The notes beneath the pieces are model-generated. The model saw nothing but the letters and a program-made list of their open reading frames with translations. It ran no database searches and was not told where the DNA came from. Of a DNA stretch of 64,000 bases, positions 3,123-61,687 are shown piece by piece (position 1 is the first letter of the stretch; each line of letters opens with the position of its first letter). Origin of the DNA: Acidobacteriota bacterium (lineage in GTDB: Bacteria > Acidobacteriota > Terriglobia > Bryobacterales > Bryobacteraceae). Where the stretch lies: contig JAPKZB010000092.1 in assembly GCA_026393985.1 (NCBI GenBank), forward strand, positions 62,001-126,000. The letters run 5' to 3'. The translations under genes were made by a program, and so were the position numbers.

Positions 3123-3461
3123 GGGAGGGGAGGGGGGATAGAGCGGCCAGGAGCAGGCGAGGCCGAGGGCACCGAGGAGCCGGCAGGTGGTCGGGCTGCT
3201 GAGGCATTCCGCGGGCCATCAGCGCAAAGGCGGCTGGCATAAACGGCGACTCCGCGAAGCCGGGCAGCGCGCGGCAGAAGAGGAGGCCATCGCCATAGGG
3301 GGCGAGGCAGGGAGAGCCGCATGAAGAAGATCCAGAGGAAGAGGCCGCCCATGATGCCGAGGATGGTGTTCGGGGGGCCGAACTCGTCTTGGAGACCCGG
3401 GGAAGAGGGTGGAGAGGGCTTGGCGGTCAGCGAGGTTGAGGACCGACGTGGGTTGGCTCAT
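3123..3461 (-). pseudogene. Decayed MFS transporter fragment
   Basis: Pieces of a major facilitator superfamily protein are readable in different frames. From ATG 3461 the first piece is MSQPTSVLNLADRQALSTLFP. After a one-base shift near the CCCCGGG run (about 3396-3402) it continues as GLQDEFGPPNTILGIMGG and LFLWIFFM, which resembles a first MFS membrane helix. A further frame then gives YGDGLLFCRALPGFAESP followed by FMPAAFALMARGM, which resembles the conserved helix-4 region. About 40 residues that should lie between these pieces are missing, and nothing clear follows LLGALGLACSWPLYP. The start codon overlaps the stop of the upstream DUF1501 gene (TCAT at 3458-3461 on the plus strand). It was therefore once translated as the last gene of that operon. 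Confidence 0.7.
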
Positions 3462-4729
3462 AGGAGCTCGTTAAGCGGCTGGCCGGTTTGGTCCTCGAGC
3501 GAATTGGCGATTTTGATGGGGCGGCCGATGGGGGTGTCGTACTCCTTGGTCCAGTCGATGCCGAAGGCTTTATAGATGGTGGCGAAGAGGTCGCCCATGC
3601 TGGTGGCGCGGCTCGAGACCTGAGCGCCGTCAGCATCCGAGGCGCCGACGACGCGGCCGCCGGCGATGCCGCCGCCGCCGATGGCGAGGGACCAGCAGTT
3701 GGGCCAATGGTCGCGGCCGCGATCGTTATTGACGAAGGGCGTACGGCCGAATTCGCCCATGGCGAGGACGATGGTGGAATGGTAGAGGCCGCGGTCTTTG
3801 AGGTCGTCGAGGAGCGTGGAAAGGGTGCGGTCGAGGGGTGGGCAGAGGCGGTCGCGGTGGCCTTCGTCGTTTTTGACGTGGGTGTCCCAGGAGTTGGAGT
3901 GGAAGCCGGCGGCGGTGACGAAGCGGGTGCCGGCTTCGACGAGGCGGCGGGCCATGAGGGCGCTTTGGCCGACGGAGTCGCGGCCGTAGCGGTCGCGCAG
4001 TTTTTCGGGCTCCTGCGACAGGTCGAAGGCTTCGCGGACCGCGGGGTTGAGGAGCATCTTGGTGGCTTGGGCTTGGAAGGCGTCCATTTGGGCGTGCTCG
4101 GCGCCTTCGACCAGGGTGCGGTAGCGGCGGTCGATCATCTGCAGGAAGCTTTTGCGATTTTCGACGGCGGCGGCGGAGACGGACTTGGGGAGGGAGAGAT
4201 CGTTGATCTGGAAGCCGGGCTTGGAGGGATCCGGGATGCACATGGGATCGTACTCGGGTCCGAGAAAGCCGGAGCGGAAGTAGTCTTCGTACTGACGCGT
4301 TTTTTCCCAGTGAGGGGTGAGGACGTGGGGCGGCATGCTGTTGCGGGCGCCGGTTTCCCTGGCGAGGATGGAGCCGATGCTGGGGAACTGCATGGCGGGA
4401 TTTACTTCGTGGCCGGTGATGGCGTAGTGGGTGCCTTGGGGGTGGTCGCTGCCGCGGGTATGCATGGAGCGGACGAGGGAGAGGCGGTCCATGCGGCGGG
4501 CGAGTTGGGGGAGGAGTTCGGAGATTTGAATGCCGGAGACGTTGGTGGAGATGGGTTGGAAGGAGGAGGTGGGTTTGGGGTCCCAGGTGTCCATCTGGCT
4601 GGGGCCGCCTTCGAGCCAGAGGAGGATGCAGGACTGGGCTTTGCCGTTGGGTTTGGCGCGGAGGAGGCCGGCGAGGTTGAGTCCGAGGAAGCCGAGGGAG
4701 CCGGCCGAGAGGAAGCTTCTGCGCTGCAT
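3458..4729 (-). CDS. DUF1501 secreted protein (module 1)
   Basis: This 423-residue protein begins MQRRSFLSAGSLGFLGLNLAG, a twin-arginine-type leader. It then shows the DUF1501 (alkaline-phosphatase/sulfatase-like fold) pattern: LLWLEGGPSQMDTWDPKP, then RSMHTRGSDH, MGEFGRTPFV and RDHWPN. In this family the protein is exported folded and always travels with a DUF1549/DUF1553 cytochrome-like partner. The biochemical role is not established. The partner gene lies immediately upstream (start 7220, stop at 4731), and the stop codon here overlaps the start of an MFS remnant. A 445-residue plus-strand frame over this gene is a composition artefact. Confidence 0.88.
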   Translation of the reverse strand: MQRRSFLSAGSLGFLGLNLAGLLRAKPNGKAQSCILLWLEGGPSQMDTWDPKPTSSFQPISTNVSGIQISELLPQLARRMDRLSLVRSMHTRGSDHPQGTHYAITGHEVNPAMQFPSIGSILARETGARNSMPPHVLTPHWEKTRQYEDYFRSGFLGPEYDPMCIPDPSKPGFQINDLSLPKSVSAAAVENRKSFLQMIDRRYRTLVEGAEHAQMDAFQAQATKMLLNPAVREAFDLSQEPEKLRDRYGRDSVGQSALMARRLVEAGTRFVTAAGFHSNSWDTHVKNDEGHRDRLCPPLDRTLSTLLDDLKDRGLYHSTIVLAMGEFGRTPFVNNDRGRDHWPNCWSLAIGGGGIAGGRVVGASDADGAQVSSRATSMGDLFATIYKAFGIDWTKEYDTPIGRPIKIANSLEDQTGQPLNELL

Positions 4730-4730
4730 G

Positions 4731-7220
4731 TTAGTGGTTCTCCGCGAATTCTCTCGAACAGAGGACGGCCCAGAAGAGATCTTTCCAGGCTTCGTTGCGG
4801 TTCGGTTGGGTGGATAGGGCGTTGAGGATCTGCCGGCGCTCGGCGGGTTCCGGGGGGCGGCTGAGGGCGGTGAGGTAGAGCTCGTTGAGGATCGTGTCGT
4901 CCGTGGCTTGGCTCGTCAGCAGATGTTGGAGACGGCCTTCGGGTGCGGCGAGTTTTTGATTGTAAATGGGCCCGGCGAGCATATGGAGCGCCTGGCCGAG
5001 GTTCGCTTTGCGGGTGCGTTCGGGAAGAGCGAGGCGGTTGGGGCGTCCGTAGAGATCGAGGAAGCGGGAGTGGAACAGGTCGGGCTCGCGGAGGTGGATG
5101 GCGCGGGTGCCGGCGGGGGTTTGCTGGGTGACTTTGCCGTTGGCGGTGACGGTGGTGGTGAAGCGTTCGGCGACGCCGGTGACTTGGCCGACGGCATCGA
5201 GGAGGACCTCGGCGAGGAGGGGGCGGGGGAGGGCGTGGCTGTAGTTGACGCGGTCGGCACGGTTGGTGGGGTTGGTTTCGGCGGAGAGCTGGTAGGTGTG
5301 GGAGGTGACGATTAAGCGCATGAGAGCGCGGAGGTTGTGGCCGTTGCGGCGGAACTCGGCGGCGAGGCGGTGGAGGAGTTCGGGATGGGTGGCGGGGTTG
5401 GTGGAACGGAAGTCGTCGACGGGGTCGACGAGGCCGCGGCCGAAGAACTCGGCCCAGATGCGATTGACGGCAGCTTCGGCGAAGTAGGGGTGTCGGACCA
5501 TCCAATCGGCGAGGGGCTTGCGGGGGTTTTCCTGATCGGAGGGCTGGACGACGCGGCCGTCGAGGAGGGTGGGGGTGAGCTTGGCTTTGGTGCGCGGGTG
5601 GAGGGTTTCGATCTTGCCGTTGACTTCAGCGTTGCCCATGCCTTCGTGCAAGGGGTGGTCGAAGATGACGTACTCGCTGCCGGTATCGCCCATCTTGAAG
5701 AGGCGGCCGAAGAAGGCGGCAAGGCCCCAGAACTGATCCTGGCTCCAGGTTTCATAGGGGTGGTTGTGGCACTGGGCGCATTCGAGGCGACGGCCGAAGA
5801 AGACGCGGACCTCTTCGGACATGGTCTCTTCGGGGGAGCCGATGACGTCGTAGGGTAGGAAGTGGCGGGAGGGGCCGTCGTAGCCCTGGGCGGAGAGGCG
5901 TTCCCAGGCCATGCGGTCGTAGGGCTTGTTTTTGGCGATGGCATCGCGGATCCATTCGCCGTACATCTGGCTCCACTTGGGGTTGATGCCGTTGGCGAAG
6001 AGGGCGACGCGGAAGAGGTCCTGGAAGCGGAAGGTCCAGTAGTCGGTGAACTCCGGGGTGGCGAGGAGGGCGTCGATGAGGCGTTCGCGTTTCCTGGGGT
6101 CGGTGCTTTGGACGAATGCGGTGACGCGGGCGGGGGGCGGGAGGGTGCCGGTGAGGTCGAGGCAGACGCGGCGGAGGAACTCGGCGTCGGCGGAGAGGGC
6201 GGAGGGGAGAATGCGGAGGCGGCGGAGTTTGTCGAAGACGTGTTCGTCGATGAAGTTGGATTTGGGGGGTGCGGGGTAGTTGGCGATGGGATCGCCGATG
6301 ACGCCGACGATGACGGCGGCGGCTTGGCCGGCGGCGCGGATGAGAATGGACGTTTCGCCGAGGGCGACGGGGGAGACGAGTCCGGAGTCGGCGACGGTGG
6401 CGACCTGGCGGTCGCTGGCGACGTACAGAGCCTGGGCGGTGACGTCCTCGCGGCGGCCGTTGGCCATGACGGCGGTGACGAGGAGGCGATGCTGCCGGTT
6501 CTTCTCGAGGGCGAGGATTTTGGGGTAGACTTCGAGGGCAGTGACGCGGCTGGTATCGTCATCGGGGGGACCGAAGGGGGCACCTTGCTGGATCCAGGCG
6601 GTGATGGCGCGGTATTCGGGAGAATCGACGGCGAAGCGCTTGCCGCCGCCGTGGGGCGTAGCGCCGGTGGCCTTGCGAAGGAGGAGGCTTTCGGCGGGTT
6701 TTTGGAGGTTGATGCGGGGGGTGCGCGCGGATTTCGATTCGGGGGAGAGGACCTGGTATTCGCCGCCTTTGACGATCCATTCGTAGTCGTCCTGAGGGAA
6801 GAGCGAGGCGGCGGAGAGCTTGAAGCCGCCGCGGCCTTTGACGCCGCCGTGGCAGGCTGGGGAGTTGCAGCCGCGCTTGGTGAGGATGGAGCCGATGGCG
6901 GAGCGGAAGCGGAACTCGGCGGGGCCGGCGGCGGTTTCGATGCGGCCGTTGGCGGAGGCGCGGAGTTTGCCGTGGGTGGCGTTAACGTGGACGGGACCGG
7001 GGTTGGCGTTGGCGGTGACGAGGCCGGCGGGGGCGTTGGCGGACCACTGCGCGGTATCGGTGAGGTCTTGGGTGGTGCCGTCGGGATATTCGGCGAGGAG
7101 GAGGAGTTGCTGGGCGGCGCCTTGTCGGTGGAGTTCGAAGGTGGCGGGGACGAGGCGGACGGCGACCGGGTCGGCGGCGAAGGCGATGGCGGCGAGGAGG
7201 AGAGCGAGGAGGAGTTTCAT
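4731..7220 (-). CDS. DUF1549/DUF1553 protein with Ig-like domains and haem-type motifs (module 1)
   Basis: This 829-residue protein has a signal peptide (MKLLLALLLAAIAFAADP). Two bacterial Ig-like (Big2-type) stretches follow (about 20-95 and 230-300), flanking the motif CNSPACH (C118, C123, H124). Then come DUF1549 (from about NFIDEHVFDKLRRL) with an internal CAQCH, and DUF1553 (from about KPLADWMVRHPYFAEAAVNR) to the C-terminus. The CX4CH spacing is typical of this subgroup and could bind haem or be a disulfide/metal site. CAQCH is a canonical c-type haem motif. The protein is probably periplasmic or outer-membrane associated. Its ATG overlaps the stop of the upstream PPC gene (TCAT, 7217-7220), which indicates translational coupling. 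The function is unproven. Confidence 0.88.
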   Translation of the reverse strand: MKLLLALLLAAIAFAADPVAVRLVPATFELHRQGAAQQLLLLAEYPDGTTQDLTDTAQWSANAPAGLVTANANPGPVHVNATHGKLRASANGRIETAAGPAEFRFRSAIGSILTKRGCNSPACHGGVKGRGGFKLSAASLFPQDDYEWIVKGGEYQVLSPESKSARTPRINLQKPAESLLLRKATGATPHGGGKRFAVDSPEYRAITAWIQQGAPFGPPDDDTSRVTALEVYPKILALEKNRQHRLLVTAVMANGRREDVTAQALYVASDRQVATVADSGLVSPVALGETSILIRAAGQAAAVIVGVIGDPIANYPAPPKSNFIDEHVFDKLRRLRILPSALSADAEFLRRVCLDLTGTLPPPARVTAFVQSTDPRKRERLIDALLATPEFTDYWTFRFQDLFRVALFANGINPKWSQMYGEWIRDAIAKNKPYDRMAWERLSAQGYDGPSRHFLPYDVIGSPEETMSEEVRVFFGRRLECAQCHNHPYETWSQDQFWGLAAFFGRLFKMGDTGSEYVIFDHPLHEGMGNAEVNGKIETLHPRTKAKLTPTLLDGRVVQPSDQENPRKPLADWMVRHPYFAEAAVNRIWAEFFGRGLVDPVDDFRSTNPATHPELLHRLAAEFRRNGHNLRALMRLIVTSHTYQLSAETNPTNRADRVNYSHALPRPLLAEVLLDAVGQVTGVAERFTTTVTANGKVTQQTPAGTRAIHLREPDLFHSRFLDLYGRPNRLALPERTRKANLGQALHMLAGPIYNQKLAAPEGRLQHLLTSQATDDTILNELYLTALSRPPEPAERRQILNALSTQPNRNEAWKDLFWAVLCSREFAENH

Positions 7221-8842
7221 GGGGTGGGCGCCACGATCATGAGCGGGATGGGCTTTTCGAGAATGGGGGCCGCGAGGTGGCCTTTGCGGACGGGGCGGAT
7301 GGTGAGTTTGGGATAGACGGGCGCGGCAGAGAGCGGGGTGCCTGGGGCGACGTGGAGGAGCAGGGAGAAGCTTTGGGGCTTGGGGGTGTAGCGTTCGATG
7401 CGGCCGGCGTTGGGAAGGGGGGGCCGTTCGACGGGGTTTTCGGCGCCGGGGAGGACGGAGACGCCGGCGGGGAGGCCGGAGAAGGTGGCGACGACGGGAT
7501 CGCGAAAATCCTCTTCCCGTTCGAGTTGGAAGGTGAGGACGCGTGCGGCGCCGGGGGCGAGATTGAGACGGTCGTCGGGGAAGGTGACGCGGCCGGCGTG
7601 GGGGACCTGGGCGCGAAGGAGGACGCGGTAGAAGAAGGCGGGGCGGCCGTGGTCGGTGGTGATGTTGCGGACCTGGAGGGTGTAGTCGCCGGGGGTGAGG
7701 AGGAAGGTGGTCCGGGCGTGGATCATCTTCATCATGTAGAGGCCGTTGTTGTTGCGTTTGGTGTGGACGTTAGTGGCGACTTCGCGGCCGGTGGAATCGA
7801 AGAGGGAGACGATGGGGTTGAATTCGGGGAGGGTGTCTTCGGGGGTTTCGATTTCGAGGGCGAGGGAGAGCGAATGGTCGAAATGGAGGGAGGCTTTGTG
7901 GACCTCGGCAGGCTGGGCGATGCGGCCTTCGAGGATGCCGGGGATGGGGAGGGCAGGGACGCTGGTGGCGGAGGCGACGAGGCGTGCGGGGGGCGGCGGG
8001 GGCTGGCTGTCGTCGCCGGCGCGGCGGTGGAGTTGGGCGAGCCAGTCGGGGCCGAGTTGGCGGACGAAGCTGCGGGGATTCCAGTCGGAGCGCTCGATGG
8101 GATGGCGGAGCGGAAGGGGGGAGATGCTGTCGCGGACGCGGAGTAAGTAGCTGGAGGCGGGGCCGCCGTGGCCGGAGAAGCCGGAAACCTGCAGGCGGTA
8201 CTGTCCGGCCCGCTGGACGGTGTGCGTCAGCCGAGCGTGGGTGGAGAGGCCGGGGAAAAAGAGGTCTTCGTCGTGGACGGCGAGGCGCTTCCAGCTTTTG
8301 GGGGAGAACCAGCTTTCGGGGGCGGGTTCGAGTAGGGTGACGACAGGATCGAAGGCGGGGTAGCCGGAGATGGCTTCGAAGGTGAAGCTCTGGCCGGCCT
8401 GCGCGTCGAGGAGGAAGACGTCGACTTCGCCGGGTTCGGCGAGGACGCCGTTGATGACGAGGGGGGCGCGGAGCGGAAGATCGGGCTGTTCGGTGGTGGT
8501 GGGTTCCGGGACGACGTGCCAGGTGATGGCGTTGGTGATGCCTTGGGGCCCGAGGGCGCGGAGCGTTTTGGGTCCCGATGTTACCGATGTATCGAGCGAG
8601 ATTTCGAGGCGGAGTTGTTCGGGGGTGGCGGAGAGGAGGCGGGCGCGGACGCCGGGTTCGGCGAGGGAGAGCGAGTGGAGGGCGGCGAGGTTGGAGCCGG
8701 TGACGGTGGCCTGGTAGGTGGCGCCGGGGCGGCCGGCGAGGGGCGAGAGCGACTGCAGGACCGGTTCGGCGGCGGGCGCGACGGTGGCGAGCATCCACAG
8801 CATGATCGCGACGCGTCCAGCCAAGCAGCTCATACCCCCCAT
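7217..8842 (-). CDS. Secreted PPC/IPT-type beta-sandwich protein (module 1)
   Basis: This 541-residue protein has a signal peptide (AGRVAIMLWMLATVAPAAEP). An IPT/TIG-like segment (LSPLAGRPGATYQATVTGSNL) is followed by two pre-peptidase C-terminal (PPC)-like domains: LAEPGEVDVFLLDAQAGQ with FDPVVTLLEP, and later IAQPAEVHKASL with FNPIVSLFDSTGREV. No catalytic motif is visible, so it is probably a binding or structural partner of the DUF1549 and DUF1501 proteins encoded just downstream. ATG 8842 and a second in-frame ATG at 8833 (MSCLAGRV) are both possible starts. It is the first gene of the module 1 operon. Confidence 0.75.
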   Translation of the reverse strand: MGGMSCLAGRVAIMLWMLATVAPAAEPVLQSLSPLAGRPGATYQATVTGSNLAALHSLSLAEPGVRARLLSATPEQLRLEISLDTSVTSGPKTLRALGPQGITNAITWHVVPEPTTTEQPDLPLRAPLVINGVLAEPGEVDVFLLDAQAGQSFTFEAISGYPAFDPVVTLLEPAPESWFSPKSWKRLAVHDEDLFFPGLSTHARLTHTVQRAGQYRLQVSGFSGHGGPASSYLLRVRDSISPLPLRHPIERSDWNPRSFVRQLGPDWLAQLHRRAGDDSQPPPPPARLVASATSVPALPIPGILEGRIAQPAEVHKASLHFDHSLSLALEIETPEDTLPEFNPIVSLFDSTGREVATNVHTKRNNNGLYMMKMIHARTTFLLTPGDYTLQVRNITTDHGRPAFFYRVLLRAQVPHAGRVTFPDDRLNLAPGAARVLTFQLEREEDFRDPVVATFSGLPAGVSVLPGAENPVERPPLPNAGRIERYTPKPQSFSLLLHVAPGTPLSAAPVYPKLTIRPVRKGHLAAPILEKPIPLMIVAPTP

Positions 8843-12438: not shown

Positions 12439-12789
12439 TTGCTCTACGGCCTCATCGGCTTGATCTGGCTGTCCTGTTCGCTGGTGGCCGCTGCGCTGCT
12501 AGTCACGCCACGCCATCGGGCGCGATCGGTCACTTTGTTTGTGGCTGTACCCAGTGGCTTCGTCGGCTCTTGCGGTTTGTCCATTGCGCTGATCAACGCC
12601 GTCGATATTGGCGGCTACGGCCCCTGGTGGGGGTCGGACTTCGGCATTTCGCTCTGGTTGGCCAGTCTTGTGCTTGGCGCCGGGGTCGGGGCGATGATCG
12701 GTCCTGCGGCGGCAAGACGCAGAGGGGGCGCCTACCGCTTCAGCCAGTTGGTCATCCAGCGGAGGTTCCGTTCCATCAGATCGCGCTGA
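12439..12789 (+). CDS. Small hydrophobic membrane protein (tentative)
   Basis: A TTG-initiated frame of 116 residues encodes three hydrophobic stretches (LYGLIGLIWLSCSLVAAALLV; SVTLFVAVPSGFVGSCGLSI; ISLWLASLVLGAGVGAMIG) followed by Arg-rich residues. The hydrophobic pattern looks real, but no family is recognised. The only available start is TTG and there is no clear ribosome site. The last 20 or so residues are antisense to the S9 peptidase gene, so the true C-terminus may have been lost. It lies just past the receptor terminator, so it would need its own promoter. Confidence 0.35.
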   Translation: MLYGLIGLIWLSCSLVAAALLVTPRHRARSVTLFVAVPSGFVGSCGLSIALINAVDIGGYGPWWGSDFGISLWLASLVLGAGVGAMIGPAAARRRGGAYRFSQLVIQRRFRSIRSR

Positions 12790-14522
12790 TGGGGCTTTTC
12801 GGTGATGCCGTGGCCTTCGCGGGGATAGACGACGTATTCGACCGGGATTTCGCGGTCGCGGAGGGATTGGTAGATGGGCGCGGTGTACTGCCAGTCGAGG
12901 GCTCCGATCTGGAGCAGGGTCGGCGTCGTGATGTCCTTCAGCTTGTGGCCGTAGGAGTGGCGCACATAGTTCTCGGGGACTTCGTGGGGCTTGCCGCCGA
13001 AGTAGGTCCAGAGGACTTCGCGGGAGCCGTTGAACTCGCCGTAATAAGCCAGCCAATCAACGGACGGCGCGCCCACGGAGGCGGCCTTGAAACGCTTGGT
13101 CTGCGCGATGGTCGCGCCGGAGAGATAACCGCCATAGCTCCAGCCCATCACCCCGAGCCGGTTGGGGTCGGCGATGCCGCGGCGGACGAGTTCGTCGAGG
13201 CCGGTCATGAGGTCGTCGTAGTCGCCGATGCCCTGCGAGAGCGTGTTTTTGTGCCGGAACTCGGCGCCGTAGTTCGAGCTGCCGCGGAAGTTTGGCGCAA
13301 AGACGGCGAGGCCGTTTTGCAGAAAGAGGGCCGTAGGATAGGTGCGGCCGTTGGGAAACGCCGTCAGCGCCACGCCGGTAGGTCCGCCGTGCAGTTCGGT
13401 GACAACGGGTACGGGATTACCGGGCTTGTGGTCAAACGGCAGCCAGAGGACGCCTTCGACGGCGAGACCGTCGCGGGCCTTCCATTGGACCACCTCGCTC
13501 TTGATGGTGGGGAGCGCGGAGAGCGCGGCAAACGCCTGGGTCAACGGGCGCTCCTGGCCGTTGTCCCAGAGGACGACTTCGGCGGGATGGGCCGGGTTGG
13601 TTTTGAGGAAGACGGCGCGGGCGAGATCGTGGCTGAAGCTGGCCATGCCGGTGACGAACTCGGCGAGGCGCGTGGGCTTGCTGGTCTTGAGGTCGACCTC
13701 CCAAAGATCGTCCTGCGTACCCTGGCCGGCGGTGAAGCGGAGGCGTTGGCCGTCTGGCGACCACGCGTAGGCGTTGCCGTTGCGGAAGACATCGTAGGGG
13801 TGGAACCTGGTGACGTACTGGATGTTGCCGCCGCCCGTGGGGACTAAGCCGATGTGGCGCTCATGGAAGTAGTTGAGCGAGCCGCACTGGGAGTGGAAGG
13901 CGAGGAACTTGCCGTCGGGGGAGTAGCTGGGCTCGGCGTCGCGGCCGGGTTGGGTGACGAGCGGGGTTTCGGCGCCGGTCGAGAGGTCGATTTCAAACAG
14001 GTCGACGTGGAAGATGTCTTCGGGTTTGGGCGTCTGCTGGATGGCGACGGCGGCGCGCTTGCCGTCGGGCGAGAGGGTGTAGGAGAGGACGTGGCGTTTG
14101 GGGCCGGTGACGCGCTTGGGGGCGGCGCCGGAGAGCGGCTGGAGCCAGAGGCTGGTGTAGCGGTTGGTTTCGCGGTTGACTGCGGGGTCGGCGGGGGGCG
14201 GGTTGTCGGTGGCGAGATAGGCGAAGGAGGCGCCGTCGGGGGACCAGGAGTAGGTGTTGACGGCGTTGCCGAAGGTCTTCTTGCCGAGGACGATTTTGCC
14301 GTTGGCGAGATAGGCGAGGAGCTTGCGATCGGGGGACCAGCGGGGTCGGCTGGCTTTGGCGACAAGGACGGGTTTGCCGTTGGGGAGATCGGCGCGATGG
14401 ACTTCGCCGTTGAGGACGTAGGCGTAGGCCTGGCCGTCGGGGCGCATTTGCGGATCGCCGAGGGCGGGTAGGGCCATCAAGGCTTCGATGGTCCAGACCG
14501 CCGCGGCCACGAAGCTAAACAA
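12732..14522 (-). CDS. S9 family prolyl oligopeptidase-type serine peptidase
   Basis: This is about 596 residues from TTG 14522. The first part is a hydrophobic leader (LFSFVAAAVW). A TolB-like propeller follows with PQMRPDGQAYAY, SPDGASFAYLA, LSPDGKRAAVAI and SPDGKFLAFHS, then an alpha/beta-hydrolase domain. The catalytic triad is Ser462 in GWSYGG, Asp543 in GALDWQ and His571 in REGHG. The start was chosen because AAGGAG lies four bases before TTG, within the end of the DUF1501 gene, and the TTG overlaps that gene's stop. The longer frame from 14675 lies wholly antiphase inside the DUF1501 gene. It probably acts on short peptides in the periplasm. It is the last gene of the module 2 operon. 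Confidence 0.88.
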   Translation of the reverse strand: MFSFVAAAVWTIEALMALPALGDPQMRPDGQAYAYVLNGEVHRADLPNGKPVLVAKASRPRWSPDRKLLAYLANGKIVLGKKTFGNAVNTYSWSPDGASFAYLATDNPPPADPAVNRETNRYTSLWLQPLSGAAPKRVTGPKRHVLSYTLSPDGKRAAVAIQQTPKPEDIFHVDLFEIDLSTGAETPLVTQPGRDAEPSYSPDGKFLAFHSQCGSLNYFHERHIGLVPTGGGNIQYVTRFHPYDVFRNGNAYAWSPDGQRLRFTAGQGTQDDLWEVDLKTSKPTRLAEFVTGMASFSHDLARAVFLKTNPAHPAEVVLWDNGQERPLTQAFAALSALPTIKSEVVQWKARDGLAVEGVLWLPFDHKPGNPVPVVTELHGGPTGVALTAFPNGRTYPTALFLQNGLAVFAPNFRGSSNYGAEFRHKNTLSQGIGDYDDLMTGLDELVRRGIADPNRLGVMGWSYGGYLSGATIAQTKRFKAASVGAPSVDWLAYYGEFNGSREVLWTYFGGKPHEVPENYVRHSYGHKLKDITTPTLLQIGALDWQYTAPIYQSLRDREIPVEYVVYPREGHGITEKPHQRDLMERNLRWMTNWLKR

Positions 14523-15957
14523 GGATCTCCTTGATGGGTTTGCCGTAGTCGATGTCGATGCGTTTGCGGCCGGGGATGTCGAGTTTGCGGGGATCGAGTC
14601 CCATCTGGTGGAGCACCGTGGCGTGAATATCGGTGACGTAGTGGCGGTTTTCGATGGCGTGGAAGCCGATTTCATCGGTGGCGCCGTGGACGACGCCGGC
14701 CTTGATGCCGCCGCCGGCCATGAAGACGGAGAAGCCGAAGGGGTGATGGTCGCGGCCGTTGGAGGCTTCGGCGCCGGGGGTGCGGCCGAATTCGGTGGCC
14801 CAGACGACGAGGGTCTCGTCGAGCAGGCCGCGCTGTTTGAGGTCCTGGAGGAGGGCAGCGATGGGCTGGTCGACCTTCATGGCGAGGGAGGAGTGGTTTT
14901 TCTTGAGGTCTTTGTGGGCGTCCCAGGCGTTGCCGGCGCCGCCGTGGTAGACCTGGACGAAGCGGACGCCGCGTTCAGAGAGGCGGCGGGCGGCGAGGCA
15001 GACCTGGGCGAAGGGGCGGGTGATCTCCTGGTCGAGGCCGTAGAGTTTTTGGGTGGCGGGGGACTCTTCCTTGAACTGGATGGCTTCGGGGACGGCCATC
15101 TGCATGCGGAAGGCGAGTTCGTAGGACTTGATGCGGGCGGCGAGGGCGGGGTCGAGGGGGTATTCGGTGGCGGACATGCCGTTCAGCTTGCGGAGCAGGG
15201 CGAATTCCCGTTCCTGGTCGGCCTTGGAGAGTTCGGCGCCGGGGGAGACGAAGGGCAGAGGGTTTTCGGGGTTAACGTCGAGGGAGACGCCGGCGTGTTC
15301 GGGACCGAGGTAGCCGGAGCCGTGGGTGCCGTTGCCGCCGCAGCAGTCGCCGGGCGGTTCACCGAGGACGACGTAGGCGGGGAGGTTTTCGTTCAGGGAG
15401 CCGAGGCCGTAGTGGACCCAGGAGCCGAGAGTGGGCAGGTAGCCGTCGAAGATGTGGCGGCCGGTGTGGAACTGGAGGATGGCGCCGTGGTCGTTGTCGG
15501 TGGTCCAGGTGGAGCGGATGAGGGAGACTTCGTGCATCTGGTTGCCGATGTGGGGGAACCAGTCGGAGACGAGGACGCCGTTTTTGCCGCGGGGCTGGTA
15601 GCCGGTCTGCATGGGATAGAGCGTGAGCTTGATCTGGTGCTGACCGGGGACGAAGGCTTTGAGGTTTTCCTTGACGAAGGGGTTGGTAAGGGTGTCGCGG
15701 TGGGGCGTTTCCGAGAGCTGTTTGCCGGCGTGTTTGTTGAGTTCGGGTTTGGGGTCGAAGGATTCGACGTGGGAGACGCCGCCGAGCATGAAGAGCCAGA
15801 TGACGCGTTTGGCTTTGGGGGCGAAGTGGGGCTGGGCGGTGGCGATGGATTGGGGGGTGAGGAGGGTGCCGAGGGCGAGTCCGGTGAGGCCCATACCGGC
15901 GTCGGCGAGGAAGATGCGGCGGGATTGGGGATTGGAGCAGATGTTACGGCGGGCCAT
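14515..15957 (-). CDS. DUF1501 secreted protein (module 2)
   Basis: This 480-residue protein has a Tat-type leader (SRRIFLADAGMGLTGLALG). The DUF1501 pattern follows: RVIWLFMLGGVSHVESFDPKP, RSTWTTDNDHGA, VYHGGAGNAWDAHKD, WATEFGRTPG and GRDHHPFGFS. It is probably an exported alkaline-phosphatase-fold protein. Its start lies 14 bases after the stop of the DUF1549 gene (15972), and its last bases carry the ribosome site and TTG start of the S9 peptidase. It is closer in layout to the module 3 copy (TEFGRTP, GGGIKAGVVHGATDEIG against SEFGRTP, GGGVRGGVVEGATDEVG) than to module 1. Confidence 0.9.
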   Translation of the reverse strand: MARRNICSNPQSRRIFLADAGMGLTGLALGTLLTPQSIATAQPHFAPKAKRVIWLFMLGGVSHVESFDPKPELNKHAGKQLSETPHRDTLTNPFVKENLKAFVPGQHQIKLTLYPMQTGYQPRGKNGVLVSDWFPHIGNQMHEVSLIRSTWTTDNDHGAILQFHTGRHIFDGYLPTLGSWVHYGLGSLNENLPAYVVLGEPPGDCCGGNGTHGSGYLGPEHAGVSLDVNPENPLPFVSPGAELSKADQEREFALLRKLNGMSATEYPLDPALAARIKSYELAFRMQMAVPEAIQFKEESPATQKLYGLDQEITRPFAQVCLAARRLSERGVRFVQVYHGGAGNAWDAHKDLKKNHSSLAMKVDQPIAALLQDLKQRGLLDETLVVWATEFGRTPGAEASNGRDHHPFGFSVFMAGGGIKAGVVHGATDEIGFHAIENRHYVTDIHATVLHQMGLDPRKLDIPGRKRIDIDYGKPIKEILV

Positions 15958-15971
15958 GGGGAGGTCTCCTC

Positions 15972-18449
15972 TTATCGGATGGTAACGAAGTCGTTGTGGT
16001 TGAGCAGGACGTGCACGAGGCTTTCGCGGCGCTGCAGGGAGCCGTCGAGATAGGCGGCGGATTCGCGGAGTTCGCCGGGCTTGGCGGGGCGGCCGAGGAG
16101 GCGCGCAAAGACGGCCTGGACGAAGGCGTGGGGGTCGGTAACGTTCGCGAGGCTGGCCGCGATGGCGCGGGAGACGGTGAAGCTGAGCTTGCCGTTGGCG
16201 AGGGCGAGGGCCTGCTGGGGGACGATGCTCTGGCTGCGCTCAAAGCACTCGATGGGGCTGGCGGCGTCGAAGACCTTGAGCATGTCCATTTGCAGGTCCG
16301 GGGCGGTGCGGAAGTAGAGGCTACGGCGGAAGACGTCGTGACCTTTGGTTTCGTCGATTTCGGGGCCGCCGCGGGTGGGGTCGAGGAGGCCGGCGACATG
16401 GAGGGCGCTATCGCGGACGACTTCGGCTTCCATGCGGCGGACGTTGGCGCGCCAGAGGGTGCGATTGTCGGGGTCGGCCTGCTGCTGGGCGGGGGCGGGG
16501 GTAGAGGCGAGGCGGTAGGCCTGGGAGGTGACCATGAGGCGGTGCATCGCTTTCATGTCCCAGTTGCGCTGCATGAATTCGACGGCGAGCCAGTCGAGCA
16601 GTTCGGGATGGGAGGGGGGCTGGCCGCTTTTGCCGAAGTTGAAGACGGTGGAGACGAGGGGGGCGCCGAAGTGGCGGGCCCACATGTGGTTCATGGCCAC
16701 GCGGGCGGTGAGGGGATTGTCTTTACTGGCGATCCAGCGGGCGAGCGCGAGGCGGCGGCCGGAGCTGGAGGCGGGGTATTTGGGGCCGATGGGGGTGTAG
16801 CCTTCGGCGGGTTCCTTGAGGAGCTTGGTGGCGGCTTCGAGGCGGGCGGCGGCGGCGGCGTTTTTGTTTTGGGAGAACTCGTGGCGGGCGCGGATCATTT
16901 CGGCGTCGGCCTTGATGGCGTTGGCTTGGAGTTCGAGTTTGCGGGCCTGTTCGGCGAGTTGCTCCATGTTGGCGGGGACGGGGGTTTGGAGGGTGGCGAG
17001 GTCGGCGCGGATGCGGGCTTCGAGGGCGGGGAGATCGGCGTGGCGGAACGCGAGATCTTTGGCGAGCGCGGAGATGATGGCTTCGGGTTCGGGCTTCTCT
17101 TTGGCCTTCTGGAGAGCGGCTTCGGCCTTTTCGATGGCGGTTTTGGCTTGGGCGATGAGGTCCTGAAGGACGAAGGGGCGGGCGTCGGGGAAGGTGTCGG
17201 TGATGGGGAGGGGGACGCGTTCGGGCTTGAGTTCCGGCTTGCCGAAGAACTTCGGTATGCCGGGCTGCATGACGGCGGAGGTGTCGGGGGTGGCCTCGTT
17301 GCCGCGGATGAAGCGATAGGTGACGGCATCGGCGTTAGCGTCGTAGACGCGGGGCAGGCCGTCTTTGAGGGTGTCGGCTTCGCCGGGGACGCGGTCGGTG
17401 CGGATGTCGTGGGATTCGAAGAAGGCGCGGAAGCGGTAGTAGTCGGTGTGGGGGATGGGATCGTACTTGTGGGTGTGGCAACGGGCGCACTTCATGGTGA
17501 CGCCGAGGAAGGAGGCCGCGGTGTACTCGGCGGCTTCCTGGAGCCAGACGTTGCGGTTGAACAGGTACCAGTTGCGGACGAGGAAGCCGGTGGCGCGTGC
17601 GGTGTCGGGGTCGCCGGGGGCGAGTTCATCGCCGGCGAGCATCTCCTGGATCATGCGGTCGTAGGGCTTGTTTTTGGCGAGGGAGTCAATGGTCCAATCG
17701 CGCCAGCGCCAGATGTGGCGGGCGCTGTAGCGGACCTGGCTGGTTTTGCGGTAGCCGTACCAGTCGGAGTAGCGCCAGATATCGAGCCAGTGGCGGCCCC
17801 AGCGTTCGGCGTGTTGGGGACTTGCGAGGAGTTCGTCGACGATGTGTTCGTAGGCGTTGGGGCGTTGATCCGCGATGAAGGCTTGGACCTGGGCCGGGGT
17901 GGGGGGGAGGCCGATGAGATCGAGGTAGACGCGGCGGATGAGGGTGGGGCGGTCGGCTGCGGCGACGGGGGTGACGCCTTTCTTCAAGCGGGGGGCGGCG
18001 AGGAGTTCGTCGATGGTCAATTGAGCCGCGGATTTGGCGGCGGGGCGAACCGGGGACTTGTAGGCCCAGTGGGCGGCGGCGGCGGAGATCCATTCGGGAT
18101 CGGGGTTGGCGGCGGCGTTTTCGAAAGGGACACCGGCTTTCACCCATTCTTCGAAGATTTTGATTTCGGCGTCGGGGAGCTTTTTGCCTTTGAAGGGCAT
18201 GCCGGGTTCGACGACATGCGCGACGACCTTGTAGAGCTGTGACTCGGCCGGGAGACCGACGGTGACGACGGGGCCGTGTTCGCTGCCGGCGAGGAGGGCT
18301 TCGCGGGTGGAGAGATCGAGACCGCCTTGCTTGACCTTGGCGTTGTGACAGCCGGCGCACTTGGCCTTGAGCAAGGCCATCGCCTCATTGGGCGCTGCTG
18401 GTAACAGGCCGACGGTCACGGCACATCCGAGCAACCACCGTATTCTCAT
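15972..18449 (-). CDS. DUF1549/DUF1553 protein with N-terminal cytochrome C domain (module 2)
   Basis: This 825-residue exported protein begins with a signal peptide (IRWLLGCAVTVGLLPAAP). A planctomycete-type cytochrome C domain follows with CAGCH (C31, C34, H35) and a distal GMPFKGKKLPD. DUF1549 (TLIRRVYLDLIGLPPTPAQ) carries an internal CARCH. A charged, probably coiled-coil segment (about 430-540) separates it from DUF1553 (ARWIASKDNPLTARVAMNHM onward). Two canonical c-type haem motifs suggest electron transfer coupled to an unknown reaction. It is the first gene of the module 2 operon, divergent from the amidohydrolase, with a perfect palindrome between them. Confidence 0.9.
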   Translation of the reverse strand: MRIRWLLGCAVTVGLLPAAPNEAMALLKAKCAGCHNAKVKQGGLDLSTREALLAGSEHGPVVTVGLPAESQLYKVVAHVVEPGMPFKGKKLPDAEIKIFEEWVKAGVPFENAAANPDPEWISAAAAHWAYKSPVRPAAKSAAQLTIDELLAAPRLKKGVTPVAAADRPTLIRRVYLDLIGLPPTPAQVQAFIADQRPNAYEHIVDELLASPQHAERWGRHWLDIWRYSDWYGYRKTSQVRYSARHIWRWRDWTIDSLAKNKPYDRMIQEMLAGDELAPGDPDTARATGFLVRNWYLFNRNVWLQEAAEYTAASFLGVTMKCARCHTHKYDPIPHTDYYRFRAFFESHDIRTDRVPGEADTLKDGLPRVYDANADAVTYRFIRGNEATPDTSAVMQPGIPKFFGKPELKPERVPLPITDTFPDARPFVLQDLIAQAKTAIEKAEAALQKAKEKPEPEAIISALAKDLAFRHADLPALEARIRADLATLQTPVPANMEQLAEQARKLELQANAIKADAEMIRARHEFSQNKNAAAAARLEAATKLLKEPAEGYTPIGPKYPASSSGRRLALARWIASKDNPLTARVAMNHMWARHFGAPLVSTVFNFGKSGQPPSHPELLDWLAVEFMQRNWDMKAMHRLMVTSQAYRLASTPAPAQQQADPDNRTLWRANVRRMEAEVVRDSALHVAGLLDPTRGGPEIDETKGHDVFRRSLYFRTAPDLQMDMLKVFDAASPIECFERSQSIVPQQALALANGKLSFTVSRAIAASLANVTDPHAFVQAVFARLLGRPAKPGELRESAAYLDGSLQRRESLVHVLLNHNDFVTIR

Positions 18450-22437: not shown

Positions 22438-22892
22438 GCCGGATTGTGGCAGAAGTTACATTCGTTGGGGGCTTTGTGTTCGTCGTGGCAGGCCATGCAG
22501 GCGTTCATGGTGATGGGTTTTTCCTTCTTGATGACTTCGCTTTCGGCGACATTGCCGTGGCATTGGGCGCAGTCGACGACGGCGGTGTGGACTTTGTGGG
22601 AGAACCAGACGAAGCCGGGTAACTTATAGACGCGAACCCAGGGGACGGGCTCTTTCCTGGCGGCGTATTCGGCGAGGAGCTGGATGTGTTTGCTTTCCTT
22701 CTTAATGGCCGTGTGGCAGGTCATGCACTTCGATTCGGCGGGGAAGGTGGCGGCTTCCCCTTTGCCGGGCATGGTGTGGCACTCGTTGCATTTAAGGCCC
22801 ATTTTGAGATGGGTTTTGTGGCTGTAGGGTATCGGCTGGTCCTGGGCGAGGAGCAGGAGCGCGCCGAGGAGGCTAAGGCAGAGCAAACGCAA
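22434..22892 (-). CDS. Pentahaem c-type cytochrome (cytochrome c3/c7-like)
   Basis: This 152-residue protein has a signal peptide (MRLLCLSLLGALLLLAQ) and five CxxCH motifs: CNECH (35-39), CMTCH (56-60), CAQCH (108-112), CMACH (132-136) and CNFCH (145-149). Extra His residues before the motifs (SHKTH at 24-28 and SHKVH at 98-102) fit bis-His ligation. It should be a periplasmic electron carrier. Its start lies 20 bases inside the end of the PQQ dehydrogenase gene, which has no haem of its own. The cytochrome is therefore the likely electron acceptor. Confidence 0.92.
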   Translation of the reverse strand: MRLLCLSLLGALLLLAQDQPIPYSHKTHLKMGLKCNECHTMPGKGEAATFPAESKCMTCHTAIKKESKHIQLLAEYAARKEPVPWVRVYKLPGFVWFSHKVHTAVVDCAQCHGNVAESEVIKKEKPITMNACMACHDEHKAPNECNFCHNPA

Positions 22893-53768: not shown

Positions 53769-54161
53769 TTACCCCGACTGCTTTGCGAGGCGCGCGGCAA
53801 AGCGTTCGACGTTGATGATGAACCGTTCGTGCGTGCCCTCGCCGACAATGCCGTGCGGCCCGTGGCACTCGACGCGGTAGTAGACCCGCCGTTCCCGCGC
53901 TTCGAGCACCTCGGCCGTAAAACGGACCGCCGCGCCCAGCGGCGCGGCCGCGACGTGCCGGACGTTCACCATGGTGCCCACCGTGTCGTAACCCTCCGGC
54001 AGCAGATTGACAATGGCGTCGCGGGCGGTCATCTCCATCGAGGCGATCATCCACGGGGTGCCGAGCACGCGAGCGTTCTCGTTGCCCAGAAACCGGATGG
54101 CGTTTTTGTCATCGACCGTGAGTGTGATCTCGTGCTTGACCCCAACGGGAATGAAAAACAT
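53769..54161 (-). CDS. Hotdog-fold thioesterase (FlK-like)
   Basis: This is 130 residues. Segments are VGVKHEITLTVDDKNAIRFLG, TPWMIASMEMTARDAIVNLLP, TVGTMVNVRHVAAAPLGAAVR and FTAEVLEARERRVYYRVECHG, with EGTHERFIINVERF at the end. The arrangement of TPWMIASME, V-N-V-R-H and G-x-G-T-H-E is that of the fluoroacetyl-CoA thioesterase-like family (Thr, Glu and His catalytic residues). It probably hydrolyses a short acyl-CoA in the cytoplasm. It is divergent from the LacI gene. Confidence 0.85.
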   Translation of the reverse strand: MFFIPVGVKHEITLTVDDKNAIRFLGNENARVLGTPWMIASMEMTARDAIVNLLPEGYDTVGTMVNVRHVAAAPLGAAVRFTAEVLEARERRVYYRVECHGPHGIVGEGTHERFIINVERFAARLAKQSG

Positions 54162-54216
54162 GGTGAATCCATCATGATGCCCTATTCGCGGACGGTTTGG
54201 GGCGCGGCTGGCTCGC

Positions 54217-54222
54217 TATACT
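54217..54222 (+). promoter_or_regulatory. Consensus -10 element before the LacI gene
   Basis: TATACT lies 11 bases before the ATG at 54234. TTGGGG (54197-54202) is only 14 bases upstream, and an offset -35 near 54193 fits better. Transcription would start within about five bases of the ATG, giving a nearly leaderless message. An AGGG also precedes the ATG, so another upstream start is possible. Confidence 0.35.
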
Positions 54223-54233
54223 ACAGGGTAACG

Positions 54234-55229
54234 ATGCCGACCATCTACGACGTCGCCAAACGGGCGGGCGTCTCGACCTACACGGTCAGTTCCGTGCTCA
54301 ACAAATCGGCTTTTGTCAGCCCCGAACTGACGGCGCGTGTAGAGAAAGCGGTCCGGGAGCTCGACTACACGCCCAACGCGGTGGCCCGCAGCCTGCAAAC
54401 GCGGAGCACGCGGACGATCGGGATGTTGATCCCCGACATCGGGAACCCGTTCTATGCCATTGTCGCGCAGGGCGTCGAAGATACGCTCCGCCAGGAGGGT
54501 TACTCGCTCATCCTGGGCAGCACTTACGACCATGTCGAGGAACAGTCGCGGTATCTGGGCGTGTTCCGGTCGAAGTTGATTGACGGGCTGTTGATTTACG
54601 TTGCCGCCGGCGATCAGAGCGAGGTGCAGCGGATGGTGGAGGCGCGCAAGCCGGTGGTTTTCGTGGGCCGTCTGCCGCGGGGCTACACCGCCGATTCGAT
54701 TACGGCCGACAATGTAAAGGGCGTTCAACTCATGCTCGATCATCTGATCGGCAAGGGGCACCGGGACATCGCCATGCTGCTCGGCCACCACTCGCTGTCG
54801 ACGGTGACCGAACGTGTCGAGGGCTGGAAGCGGGCTATGAAGCGGCACGGCATCAAAGCGCGGCCGGAGCTGATTATCGAAGGCGATTGGAGCGAGGCCT
54901 CGGCCTACGCCGCCACGCAGGGGCTGTTGCAGTTGCCGGGGCGGCCCACGGCCATCTTTGCCGTGAACTTTCCCATGCTCACCGGCGCGCTGCGGGCGAT
55001 TCGCGAGGCGGGCTTGCGCTGCCCCGAGGATGTGGAGGTCGCCTGTTCGGACGACTACGACTGGCTCGACCTGTTTCATCCGCCGATCTCGACCATCATC
55101 CAGCACAACTACAACATTGGGGAAGAGGCGGCGCGGATGGTGCTGCAGCGCATCCGGCAGCCGGAGCGGCCGTTTCAGCAGACGACGATTGAGCCCCATT
55201 TACGCATCCGCGGCGAGAGCGCGCCATGA
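54234..55229 (+). CDS. LacI family transcriptional regulator
   Basis: This is 331 residues from ATG 54234. The helix-turn-helix and hinge read MPTIYDVAKRAGVSTYTVSSV, SPELTARVEKAVRELDYTPN and AVARSLQTRSTRTIGMLIPDI. The periplasmic-binding-like effector domain follows, with NPFYAIVAQGVEDTLR, GHRDIAMLLGHHS and VACSDDYDWLDLFHPPIST. It lies 12 bases upstream of the third DUF1549 gene and in the same direction. It probably controls this operon in response to a sugar-like ligand, the only functional hint for any of the three modules. The frame from 53622 that includes 204 extra residues is a shadow extension. Confidence 0.93.
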   Translation: MPTIYDVAKRAGVSTYTVSSVLNKSAFVSPELTARVEKAVRELDYTPNAVARSLQTRSTRTIGMLIPDIGNPFYAIVAQGVEDTLRQEGYSLILGSTYDHVEEQSRYLGVFRSKLIDGLLIYVAAGDQSEVQRMVEARKPVVFVGRLPRGYTADSITADNVKGVQLMLDHLIGKGHRDIAMLLGHHSLSTVTERVEGWKRAMKRHGIKARPELIIEGDWSEASAYAATQGLLQLPGRPTAIFAVNFPMLTGALRAIREAGLRCPEDVEVACSDDYDWLDLFHPPISTIIQHNYNIGEEAARMVLQRIRQPERPFQQTTIEPHLRIRGESAP

Positions 55230-55241
55230 AATAATGGTCGC

Positions 55242-57365
55242 GTGACCCTGCGGATTTTCAGCCTTGTCCTGTTTGTTGCCGCCCTTCCGGCGCAGCCTCC
55301 CAAGCTGAAGCTGTGGTCGCTGCAGCCGGTTGCCCCGCCCGCCGTTCCGGCGGGCGCCCCGCATCCGGTGGACGCCTTTATCGGGGTGCAGCACCAAGCC
55401 AAAGGTCTGCGGCCCAACGGCCCGGCCGATAAGCTGACGCTACTGCGCCGCGCGACGTTCGACCTCACCGGACTGCCGCCAACGCCCGCCGAACAGGACG
55501 CTTTTCTGGCCGACAACTCCCCCACGGCCTACGAAAAGCTTCTCGACCGCCTGCTGGCCGACGAGCAGCACGGCGTTCGCTACGCCCGCCACTGGCTCGA
55601 CGTCCTGCGCTACGCCGATATGGATGGCAACGACGGCGGGGTGATGCCGGCGAGCGGCAGCATCTGGCGCTGGCGCGACTGGATGATTCAGGCGCTCAAC
55701 GATGACATTCCCTATGACCAGTTCGTCCGGGCGCAGATCCTGGGCAATCGCCACGGCGGCCGGCCCACGCTGACCGTCTTTGGCACCCGCGCCCGCGCCG
55801 AGGCGATGCCGCAGGATCAGTTTGCGCTCGGGTTTCTCTCCCGCGCCGCGCTCACCGGCAACGACCGCGATCAGGACATCGCGATTCAGGCCGTCGAAAC
55901 CATCTCCTCGGCCTTCCTGGGCATGACCGTGGCCTGCGCCAAATGCCACGACCATCGCTTCGACCCGATCAAGCAGTCCGACTACTACGCCATGAAAGCG
56001 CTGTTCGATCCGCTGGCGCTGCGGACGGTGTCGCTGGCGACCCCCGAACAGATCTACGCCTACGGCAAGGCGGTGGACGCTTACCGGCGGCGGAAGGAGC
56101 CCGTGGACCAGGCGATTGAAAAGCTCATTGCCCCCTACCACGAGAAGCTCTACGCCGAGCGCGTTTCGATGTTGCCGCCCGACGTCCGGGCGATCGTGCT
56201 GAAGCCCGAACGCAAGCGCACCGAAGCCGAACAGAAGATTGCCGACGACTACTTTCCGGTGCTCCGCATCGATCCGCCGAAGATGAAGGCCATCATGCCG
56301 GCCGAGGTGGTGAAGGCCTACGATGCGCTGCTCAAAGAGCAGCGGGAGATCAAGGCGCCGGCGGGCTTGGAGTCGCACGTCATTGTAGAAGAGGACGCCG
56401 CGCGCCTGCAGCGACCCACCTACATTCTCACCTCGGGTGACCCGGCCAAGCCGGAGAAGGACAAACCGGTGGCCCCGGGCTTTCCCTTTCAACCGGCGGA
56501 CACGGACTTCCGCTACGGCCGCCGCGAAGGCTTTGTGGACTGGCTGACGGACAAGGAGAATCCGCTGTTTGCCCGGGTGGCGGTGAACCGGGTGTGGCAG
56601 CGGCATTTCGGCCAGGGGCTGCAGAAGTCGCCGAGCGACTTCGGGCTGCTCGGCGGGCGCCCCACCCATCCGCAGTTGCTCGACTATCTGGCCAGCGAGT
56701 TCACGCGCCATAACTTCAGCATGAAGTGGCTGCACAAGTTTCTGATGACCTCGGCGGCCTACCGGATGGACTCCCGGCCTGTTGCGGCCAATCAGAAGAT
56801 CGACCCGGCCAATGACCTGCTCTGGCGCTTCCGGCTGCAGCGCCTTGAAGCCGAACCGCTGTGGGACGCAATTTTGTCGAGCGCCGGCGAGCTCGACCGG
56901 ACCATTGGCGGCAAGTCCTTTCAGATAGTGAAGACCGACAGCAAACAGAGCATCTTCTTGCCGAAGGACGGGACGTTTGCAGCGCGGAAGAATCGCCGGG
57001 CAGCGTACATGACGCGCGGCTACATCCCAAGTACTGAGGTGATGGCGCACTTCCTGCAGTCGTTCGACGTCGATGACGGCCGGACGCCGTGCCCGGTGCG
57101 GACGCAGACCGTGACGGCGCCGCAGGCGCTGTTTTCGATGAACGATCCATTGATTGAAGACGCCACGGCGAAGCTGGCCGCGCGGGCCCGGAAGGCCGGG
57201 GACCTGCCGGCGGCGGTGCAGTTGGCGTATCGCGAAACGATCGGCCGTCCGCCGTCGCCAGCCGAACTGGACCGGGCGCTGAGCTACCTGGGCGGTGACG
57301 CGGCGAAGTTGGAGGGCCTGGCGTGGCTGCTCTACAACCTGGATGAGTTCCTGTTTGTCCGCTGA
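55242..57365 (+). CDS. DUF1549/DUF1553 protein (module 3)
   Basis: This is 707 residues from GTG 55242, with signal peptide TLRIFSLVLFVAALPAQP. DUF1549 begins almost at once (VDAFIGVQHQAKGL, LLRRATFDLTGLPPTP, YARHWLDVLRYADMDGNDGG) and contains CAKCH (C232, C235, H236). DUF1553 runs from about GFVDWLTDKENPLFARVAVNR to FLFVR. It lacks the N-terminal cytochrome C domain of the module 2 copy and the Ig-like domains of module 1, so it has just one haem-type motif. It is cotranscribed with LacI upstream and DUF1501 downstream. Confidence 0.9.
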   Translation: MTLRIFSLVLFVAALPAQPPKLKLWSLQPVAPPAVPAGAPHPVDAFIGVQHQAKGLRPNGPADKLTLLRRATFDLTGLPPTPAEQDAFLADNSPTAYEKLLDRLLADEQHGVRYARHWLDVLRYADMDGNDGGVMPASGSIWRWRDWMIQALNDDIPYDQFVRAQILGNRHGGRPTLTVFGTRARAEAMPQDQFALGFLSRAALTGNDRDQDIAIQAVETISSAFLGMTVACAKCHDHRFDPIKQSDYYAMKALFDPLALRTVSLATPEQIYAYGKAVDAYRRRKEPVDQAIEKLIAPYHEKLYAERVSMLPPDVRAIVLKPERKRTEAEQKIADDYFPVLRIDPPKMKAIMPAEVVKAYDALLKEQREIKAPAGLESHVIVEEDAARLQRPTYILTSGDPAKPEKDKPVAPGFPFQPADTDFRYGRREGFVDWLTDKENPLFARVAVNRVWQRHFGQGLQKSPSDFGLLGGRPTHPQLLDYLASEFTRHNFSMKWLHKFLMTSAAYRMDSRPVAANQKIDPANDLLWRFRLQRLEAEPLWDAILSSAGELDRTIGGKSFQIVKTDSKQSIFLPKDGTFAARKNRRAAYMTRGYIPSTEVMAHFLQSFDVDDGRTPCPVRTQTVTAPQALFSMNDPLIEDATAKLAARARKAGDLPAAVQLAYRETIGRPPSPAELDRALSYLGGDAAKLEGLAWLLYNLDEFLFVR

Positions 57366-61683: not shown

Positions 61684-61687
61684 GACG

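Follow-up and report, generated by a model that had tools for sequence, protein, structure and literature searches.

In this study, we analysed a 64,000-nucleotide stretch of DNA (the window) from an Acidobacteriota bacterium of the Bryobacteraceae (assembly GCA_026393985.1, contig JAPKZB010000092.1, positions 62,001 to 126,000). It carries three modules, in each of which a DUF1549/DUF1553 gene with Cys-His motifs of the haem-binding type adjoins a DUF1501 gene. We found that DUF1501 and DUF1549 are an inseparable, co-evolving gene pair. We also found that the DUF1501 protein, which is predicted to have the fold of the alkaline phosphatase/sulfatase superfamily, has an invariant histidine at the position of the catalytic cysteine of sulfatases. 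The pair may be an exported metalloenzyme of two proteins, with haem as an optional part, that acts on carbohydrates. This whole chain is tentative, whereas the pairing, the fold and the residue replacement are much firmer.

DUF1501 and DUF1549 form one unit

The modules and their Cys-His motifs had been described in a first-pass annotation made from the sequence alone, and all were recovered at the same positions by Pfam and by sequence. Family membership was defined as a Pfam match above the curated cut-off (DUF1549 and DUF1553; DUF1501, PF07394), and all three window modules passed the cut-offs of the three families. We then searched the host genome, which comprises 5.9 Mb in 96 contigs. 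It contained 75 full-length DUF1501 genes and 76 DUF1549 matches. Seventy-four of the 75 DUF1501 genes adjoined a DUF1549 gene on the same strand, with DUF1549 first in 70 pairs and a median gap of 4.5 bp, and the 75th adjoined the only above-cut-off DUF1800 gene of the genome. About 5% of the genome is thus devoted to the 74 pairs, whose function has no description. Congeneric relatives had 79 to 97 DUF1549-type matches each, except for one fragmentary genome. Because the genome holds 74 pairs, three in 64 kb are unremarkable: 0.81 pairs are expected, and the probability of three or more is 0.049 for a given window before multiple testing is considered. Clustering of the modules was therefore rejected as a signal.

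The trees of the two proteins were highly similar, with a Mantel r of 0.948 over 72 pairs (shuffle maximum, 0.31) and 0.81 within 59 core pairs (shuffle maximum, 0.13). The pairs fell into five architectural classes, with two CxxCH motifs (46 pairs), one CxxCH (11), CX4CH plus CxxCH (7), three CxxCH (5) and a divergent CxxCH[N/D]G (5), and the window samples three of them. The CX4CH class and the divergent class each formed one clade in both trees. These results bear out the constant pairing that had been proposed. Lack of conservation of the Cys-His motifs had been named as evidence that would speak against the proposal; we found that the Cys, Cys and His of one CxxCH motif are invariant in 74 of 74 pairs. 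Single-motif proteins occupy at least four places on the tree, which suggests repeated losses of the N-terminal haem domain.

The twin arginines of DUF1501 were aligned in 74/74 and 73/74 pairs, and the RR was also found in 21/21 DUF1800-linked DUF1501 proteins and in 19/19 DUF1552 proteins. In module 1, the twin-arginine (Tat) motif lies at 4718..4723 on the minus strand. As the first-pass annotation had held, DUF1501 carries a conserved Tat-type signal, and its motif marks it as a predicted Tat substrate.

A few loci departed from this pattern or resembled it. A 1254-residue open frame on contig C47 was considered as a DUF1549-DUF1501 fusion and rejected as a frameshift, because the stretch between the two domains is wrong-frame sequence; the DUF1549 gene there (G000:C47:118749-121718; L092:7231-10992) has an apparent frameshift and reads on into its DUF1501 neighbour. 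Roughly 110 kb downstream of the window, another DUF1549 gene (G000:C16:235679-238411) has an in-frame TAG and seems broken; its DUF1501 match is full length. The DUF1549 match at G000:C54:197390-198007 was the only one away from a contig end that had no same-strand DUF1501 within 6 kb. A search for viral relatives gave four pattern matches, none of which was confirmed.

The active site of DUF1501 is altered

The DUF1501 protein of module 1 (3458..4729, minus strand; Pfam 3.4e-101) was modelled with AlphaFold at a pLDDT of 88.7 and a pTM of 0.87. The model matched sulfatases in Foldseek (1.9e-7) and nucleotide pyrophosphatase/phosphodiesterases in VIA-align (Z 18.4, root-mean-square deviation (rmsd) 3.3, 246 residues). 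These matches of the model place DUF1501 in the predicted fold of the alkaline phosphatase/sulfatase superfamily, in agreement with the phosphatase-type fold claimed for it earlier. The same genome has 53 sulfatase matches. A global profile alignment (hhalign) of DUF1501 against 30 sulfatases of this genome gave a probability of 98.4%, compared with less than 1% for unrelated controls.

In this alignment, the invariant His96 (4442..4444) falls on the catalytic Cys of the sulfatase C-x-P-S-R motif, and a helix starts at His96 in the model. Glu326-Phe327-Gly328 (EFG, 3746..3754) falls on the sulfatase metal motif DHG/DNG, with Glu326 at the place of the metal Asp. Phe327 takes the place of one canonical metal ligand in DUF1501, which also shows no conservation of the strand-1 Asp. 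His96, Asp282, His284, Arg329 and His341 were kept in 73 DUF1549-linked and 21 DUF1800-linked DUF1501 proteins. Asp282 and His284 belong to a WDTH motif (3878..3889), and His341, together with Asp340, to an RDH motif (3707..3715). Both His96 and His341 were also present in 19/19 DUF1552 proteins, making 113 proteins in three families in all, and His284 in 16/19. The Cys/Ser/Thr nucleophile of active sulfatases and phosphodiesterases was not found in DUF1501, where the invariant histidine stands instead, and neither were their canonical metal ligands, with EFG replacing DHG/DNG. Judged from these alignments, with His96 at the catalytic Cys position, DUF1501 lacks the nucleophile on which ordinary sulfatases and phosphodiesterases rely but retains a set of residues rich in histidines and acids. 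The conserved residues may meet in space and bind metal.

The same position can be read in another way. DUF1501 might be an ordinary hydrolase of the superfamily with His96 as its covalent nucleophile, in which case the partner would bind the substrate or localise the enzyme, and the haem would only sense or store electrons. The fold and the closest structures, which are nucleotide phosphodiesterases and sulfatases, agree with this, as do the exact placement of His96 and the existence of haem-free DUF1800 pairs. However, Phe327 replaces a canonical metal ligand, the strand-1 Asp is lacking, and the Cys-His motif that is invariant in 74 pairs would need another reason. We also know of no member of the alkaline phosphatase superfamily with a His nucleophile. 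We consider such a hydrolase somewhat unlikely, although it is the main rival to a metalloenzyme.

Conservation of active-site-like residues also speaks against a structural or cell-envelope role of the pair, for example in compartmentalised cells, as has been suggested for the DUF1501 module of PVC bacteria with such cells. A preference of the module for compartmentalised PVC species speaks for such a role (Kamneva et al. 2012, as relayed in PMC4452313 and PMC4960237). However, the pair is common in Acidobacteriota and was found in Caulobacter in a control search, and an envelope role is very improbable.

DUF1501 and its relatives have homologous partners

We examined 25 other Acidobacteriota genomes, chosen because DUF1800 was present. 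DUF1501 genes lay beside DUF1800 or DUF1549 in 57 of 59 cases (47 and 10, respectively). Comparison of DUF1549-DUF1553 with DUF1800 by hhalign gave 91% locally and 97.5% globally over 417 columns, compared with less than 1% for controls. The DUF1553 region of module 1 itself had a DUF1800 (PF08811) match of 4.9e-4 that did not reach the cut-off (19.8 bits against 26.1), and the relation is seen at the profile level only. At that level, the alignments indicate that DUF1549-DUF1553 is homologous to DUF1800. The CxxCHxHxxDP segment of DUF1549 faces a gap in the DUF1800 alignment, and CxxCH was found in none of 28 DUF1800 proteins. This gap would fit either a gain of the CxxCH loop in the DUF1549 branch or its loss in the DUF1800 branch. 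Searches of the PDB with the DUF1549-DUF1553 protein of module 1 returned Ig domains: only these matched by sequence, and the structural matches of the model were filled by the Ig domain at residues 217-309.

DUF1552 adjoined PSCyt3-type genes in 19/19 cases in the host genome. It matched DUF1501 (2e-15), and DUF1553 was matched by the C-terminal part of the PSCyt3-type protein (1.6e-7). By these profile matches, DUF1552/PSCyt3 is a third homologous pair. The system common to the three pairs would consist of a Tat-exported phosphatase-fold protein and a helical partner. Haem is optional and not part of this core, since the haem-free DUF1800 can replace the haem protein. The first-pass annotation had made an exported haem-like protein the constant partner; this is right for the Cys-His motif within DUF1549 pairs but not for the core, which includes DUF1800 pairs without CxxCH. 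Three unexplained pairs (DUF1501-DUF1549, DUF1501-DUF1800 and DUF1552-PSCyt3) are thus joined as one homologous system, and therefore one solved case would help to explain all three.

The partner could also be the real catalyst, with DUF1501 serving as a dedicated maturation or metal-delivery protein of DUF1549 or DUF1800. DUF1800 has invariant residues of its own (Glu355, Asn356, Arg359 and Glu360; numbering of L106), and the strict one-to-one pairing, the co-evolution and the degenerated hydrolytic site of DUF1501 also speak for this. However, three invariant histidines together with acids at an old active site would be superfluous in a chaperone, and one factor could serve 74 clients, yet every pair has its own. 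We regard this alternative as unlikely.

The CX4CH pairs are linked to a PPC gene

Module 1 is a three-gene operon on the minus strand, and its first gene encodes a PPC-type protein (7217..8842). No Pfam match was found for the window copy. However, four of seven genome homologues of this gene had PPC matches (best, 7e-9), so the earlier PPC label is right by relationship. The second gene encodes the DUF1549/DUF1553 (PSCyt2-PSD1) protein (4731..7220), which has a signal peptide and was modelled at a pLDDT of 90.3. It contains the DUF1549 (PSCyt2) domain at 5703..6251 (Pfam 6e-41) and the DUF1553 (PSD1) domain at 4821..5522 (Pfam 3e-40). Both of the Ig-like domains claimed for this protein were found. 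One is a Big_2 domain (6345..6545; Pfam 2.4e-5) with LigA as its best structural match (Z 10.5, rmsd 1.1, 87 residues), and the other is a beta-rich stretch in the AlphaFold model (residues 20-94) with no Pfam match. The CX4CH motif, CNSPACH (6849..6869), lies in the N-terminal haem-type domain. The second motif, CAQCHNH (5760..5780), lies inside DUF1549 and carries the C, C and H that are invariant across the genome; a Pfam scan around it gave no cytochrome family match.

A PPC-type gene adjoined 7/7 CX4CH pairs and 0/67 other pairs in the genome (Fisher, 6e-10). We then collected 80 related loci, selected for the second motif and for their resemblance to module 1, without using the CX4CH motif. 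CX4CH was present in 79 of the 80, a result that applies to the CX4CH subtype only. The loci came from Acidobacteriota, Planctomycetota, Verrucomicrobiota, Omnitrophota, Hydrogenedentota and Armatimonadetes. The three genes were on one strand in 33 of the 41 loci with full flanks, in several gene orders. Because the genes stay together while their order changes, these results argue for a functional link between the CX4CH pair and the PPC gene. PPC had been listed among changing accessories; it is linked to the CX4CH pairs, but there it is obligate and not changing.

The N-terminal domains of the two motif types differed in a second candidate ligand. Met-Pro near the motif is where the axial Met of a haem usually lies. 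It was found within 75 residues of the motif in 51/51 N-terminal CX2CH domains, compared with 8% of random stretches of the same proteins. The CX4CH domains had His-x-Gly-Gly without Met-Pro in 7/7 cases, as did 76 of 79 relatives. His190 (6651..6653) was invariant in the 79 aligned sequences, where it stands in place of the CX2CH-type Met-Pro, and is the candidate second ligand. With Met-Pro in 51/51 and the His in 7/7, the N-terminal domain is a predicted c-type cytochrome. The CX2CH type would then have a His/Met haem and the CX4CH type a His/His haem of lower potential. Cytochrome c assembly genes are present in the genome, and haem is probably attached to the pair proteins.

Neighbouring genes and other features of the window

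Module 2 lies on the minus strand and comprises DUF1501 (14515..15957; Pfam 3e-130) and a DUF1549/DUF1553 gene with a PSCyt1 haem domain (15972..18449; Pfam). Its two CxxCH motifs are at 18345-18359 and 17475-17489, and its N-terminal domain has both PSCyt1 and cytochrome Pfam matches. An S9 peptidase gene (12732..14675, with a possible start at 14522; Pfam 1.2e-40) follows downstream on the same strand. Module 3 lies on the plus strand and comprises a DUF1549/DUF1553 gene (55242..57365; Pfam) with a single CxxCH at 55935-55949 and DUF1501 (57379..58734; Pfam 5.8e-119). For the latter, a start at 57379, which encodes the Tat-like MLTRRKLLRL, fits better than 57295. A LacI regulator gene (54132..55229; Pfam) lies upstream.

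The first-pass annotation had proposed one core reaction that accessories (peptidase, LacI and PPC) aim at different substrates. Neighbours do differ between pairs, and a third protein of its own is obligate in the CX4CH subtype. To follow this, genes were called around all pairs, and 99 operon neighbours of the 67 non-CX4CH pairs were scanned with Pfam. They contained 160 families, of which none had more than five members; the four most frequent (3 to 5 members each) were other DUF pair genes. Apart from these, no family occurred more than three times among the 99, and no recurring operon partner of the CX2CH pairs was found. Twenty-two of the 74 pairs had no operon neighbour at all. The S9 peptidase was kept beside module 2 in all four congeneric genomes with a covered flank (66-91% identity) but was absent beside orthologues at 44-47% identity. 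The LacI gene was kept in the three nearest congeners. Two others, at 74-75% and with their flanks covered, lacked it; the module 3 pair itself was kept in 8/8 relatives. The peptidase and LacI genes are therefore local neighbours, confined to close congeners, whereas the pair persists beyond them. Substrates directed by neighbours appear doubtful, with the PPC subtype as the exception, and the accessory proposal as a whole is improbable.

Several other genes were observed in the window. A Ser/Thr kinase fused to a PD40 (WD40-like) propeller (447-3122) adjoins module 1. A PQQ-dependent dehydrogenase with a beta-propeller (22873-24660; Pfam 6e-190) is another likely periplasmic redox enzyme. 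Two AcrB-type efflux transporters lie at 59342-64000 and 40130-43609; the former is just after module 3 and has CusB/HlyD and OEP partners. No RNA elements were found in the window.

A proposed mechanism

We propose that each module encodes an exported two-protein unit, in which DUF1501 would cross the membrane folded via Tat. Its site would have been rebuilt, with His in place of the nucleophile and Glu in place of the metal Asp, leaving the Asp/His/Asp-His set. Such a histidine-rich metal site may have lost the usual ester hydrolysis and gained a metal-centred reaction on a carbohydrate-type substrate. The DUF1549-DUF1553 protein would be its dedicated partner, built on a helical scaffold common with DUF1800. 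This partner might have gained the CxxCH loop and, in many cases, a cytochrome c domain at its N-terminus, and would pass electrons to the DUF1501 site or take them from it. There may be two redox types, a CX2CH type with a normal His/Met haem and a CX4CH type, probably His/His and of lower potential, which would work with the PPC-type protein and the Ig-like domains, expected to bind substrate or the cell surface. From the data above we infer haem attachment, metal binding, a physical complex, electron transfer and the nature of the substrate.

Several observations weigh against a redox metalloenzyme acting on carbohydrates. DUF1552 retains neither Glu326 nor Asp282, and the site therefore differs between families. 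Haem-free DUF1800 pairs imply that electron transfer via this haem is not needed for the core. No carbohydrate gene recurred clearly beside the pairs (99 operon neighbours of 67 pairs). The role of Cbp2D of Cellvibrio japonicus, a haem protein compared below, speaks for such an enzyme, but its placement in the PSCyt3 sister branch, by Pfam architecture, is presumptive.

More broadly, DUF1501, DUF1552 and their partners could be one undescribed class of two-subunit exported metalloenzymes. The sulfatase fold would then have been turned into a histidine-rich, probably redox-active metal site, with an interchangeable partner that carries electrons (DUF1549, PSCyt3) or is haem-free (DUF1800). This generalisation is rather doubtful at present.

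Comparison with known systems

The pair itself has previously been described, without a function, and the earlier wording of an undescribed system was too strong. PSCyt2 genes were reported beside a family of unknown role in Verrucomicrobia, with nothing known of their functions (PMC5615132), and the DUF1501 module of PVC bacteria was described by Kamneva et al. (2012), as cited in PMC4452313. PSCyt2-PSD1 beside DUF1501 in planctomycetes and Verrucomicrobia (PMC5615132, PMC2754498, PMC4452313) has the same domains, adjacency and high copy number. The portions of this earlier work available to us contain no fold-level analysis of the site, do not connect the pair to DUF1800 or DUF1552 and mention no CX4CH/PPC subtype.

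DUF1800-DUF1501 pairs travel with bacterial chitin synthases (PMC5122149). They have the same DUF1501 core and histidines and a partner homologous to DUF1549-DUF1553, but this partner has neither CxxCH nor the loop that bears it. In DUF1552 with PSCyt3/PSD2, the former has the RR and histidines of DUF1501, and the C-terminus of the latter is homologous to PSD1; however, the Pfam families are different, and Asp282 and Glu326 are not kept. Cbp2D of C. japonicus, annotated as DUF1587, has a proven c-type haem domain, which reduces lytic polysaccharide monooxygenases (LPMOs), and knock-out of the Cbp2D and Cbp2E genes led to poor growth on cellulose (PMC8981238). Type I sulfatases and nucleotide pyrophosphatase/phosphodiesterases resemble DUF1501 in fold and active-site position, but DUF1501 has His and no Cys/Ser/Thr nucleophile, and its metal ligands are changed. 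The change of the nucleophile to His and the haem insertion offer precise mutants with which the pair can be tested.

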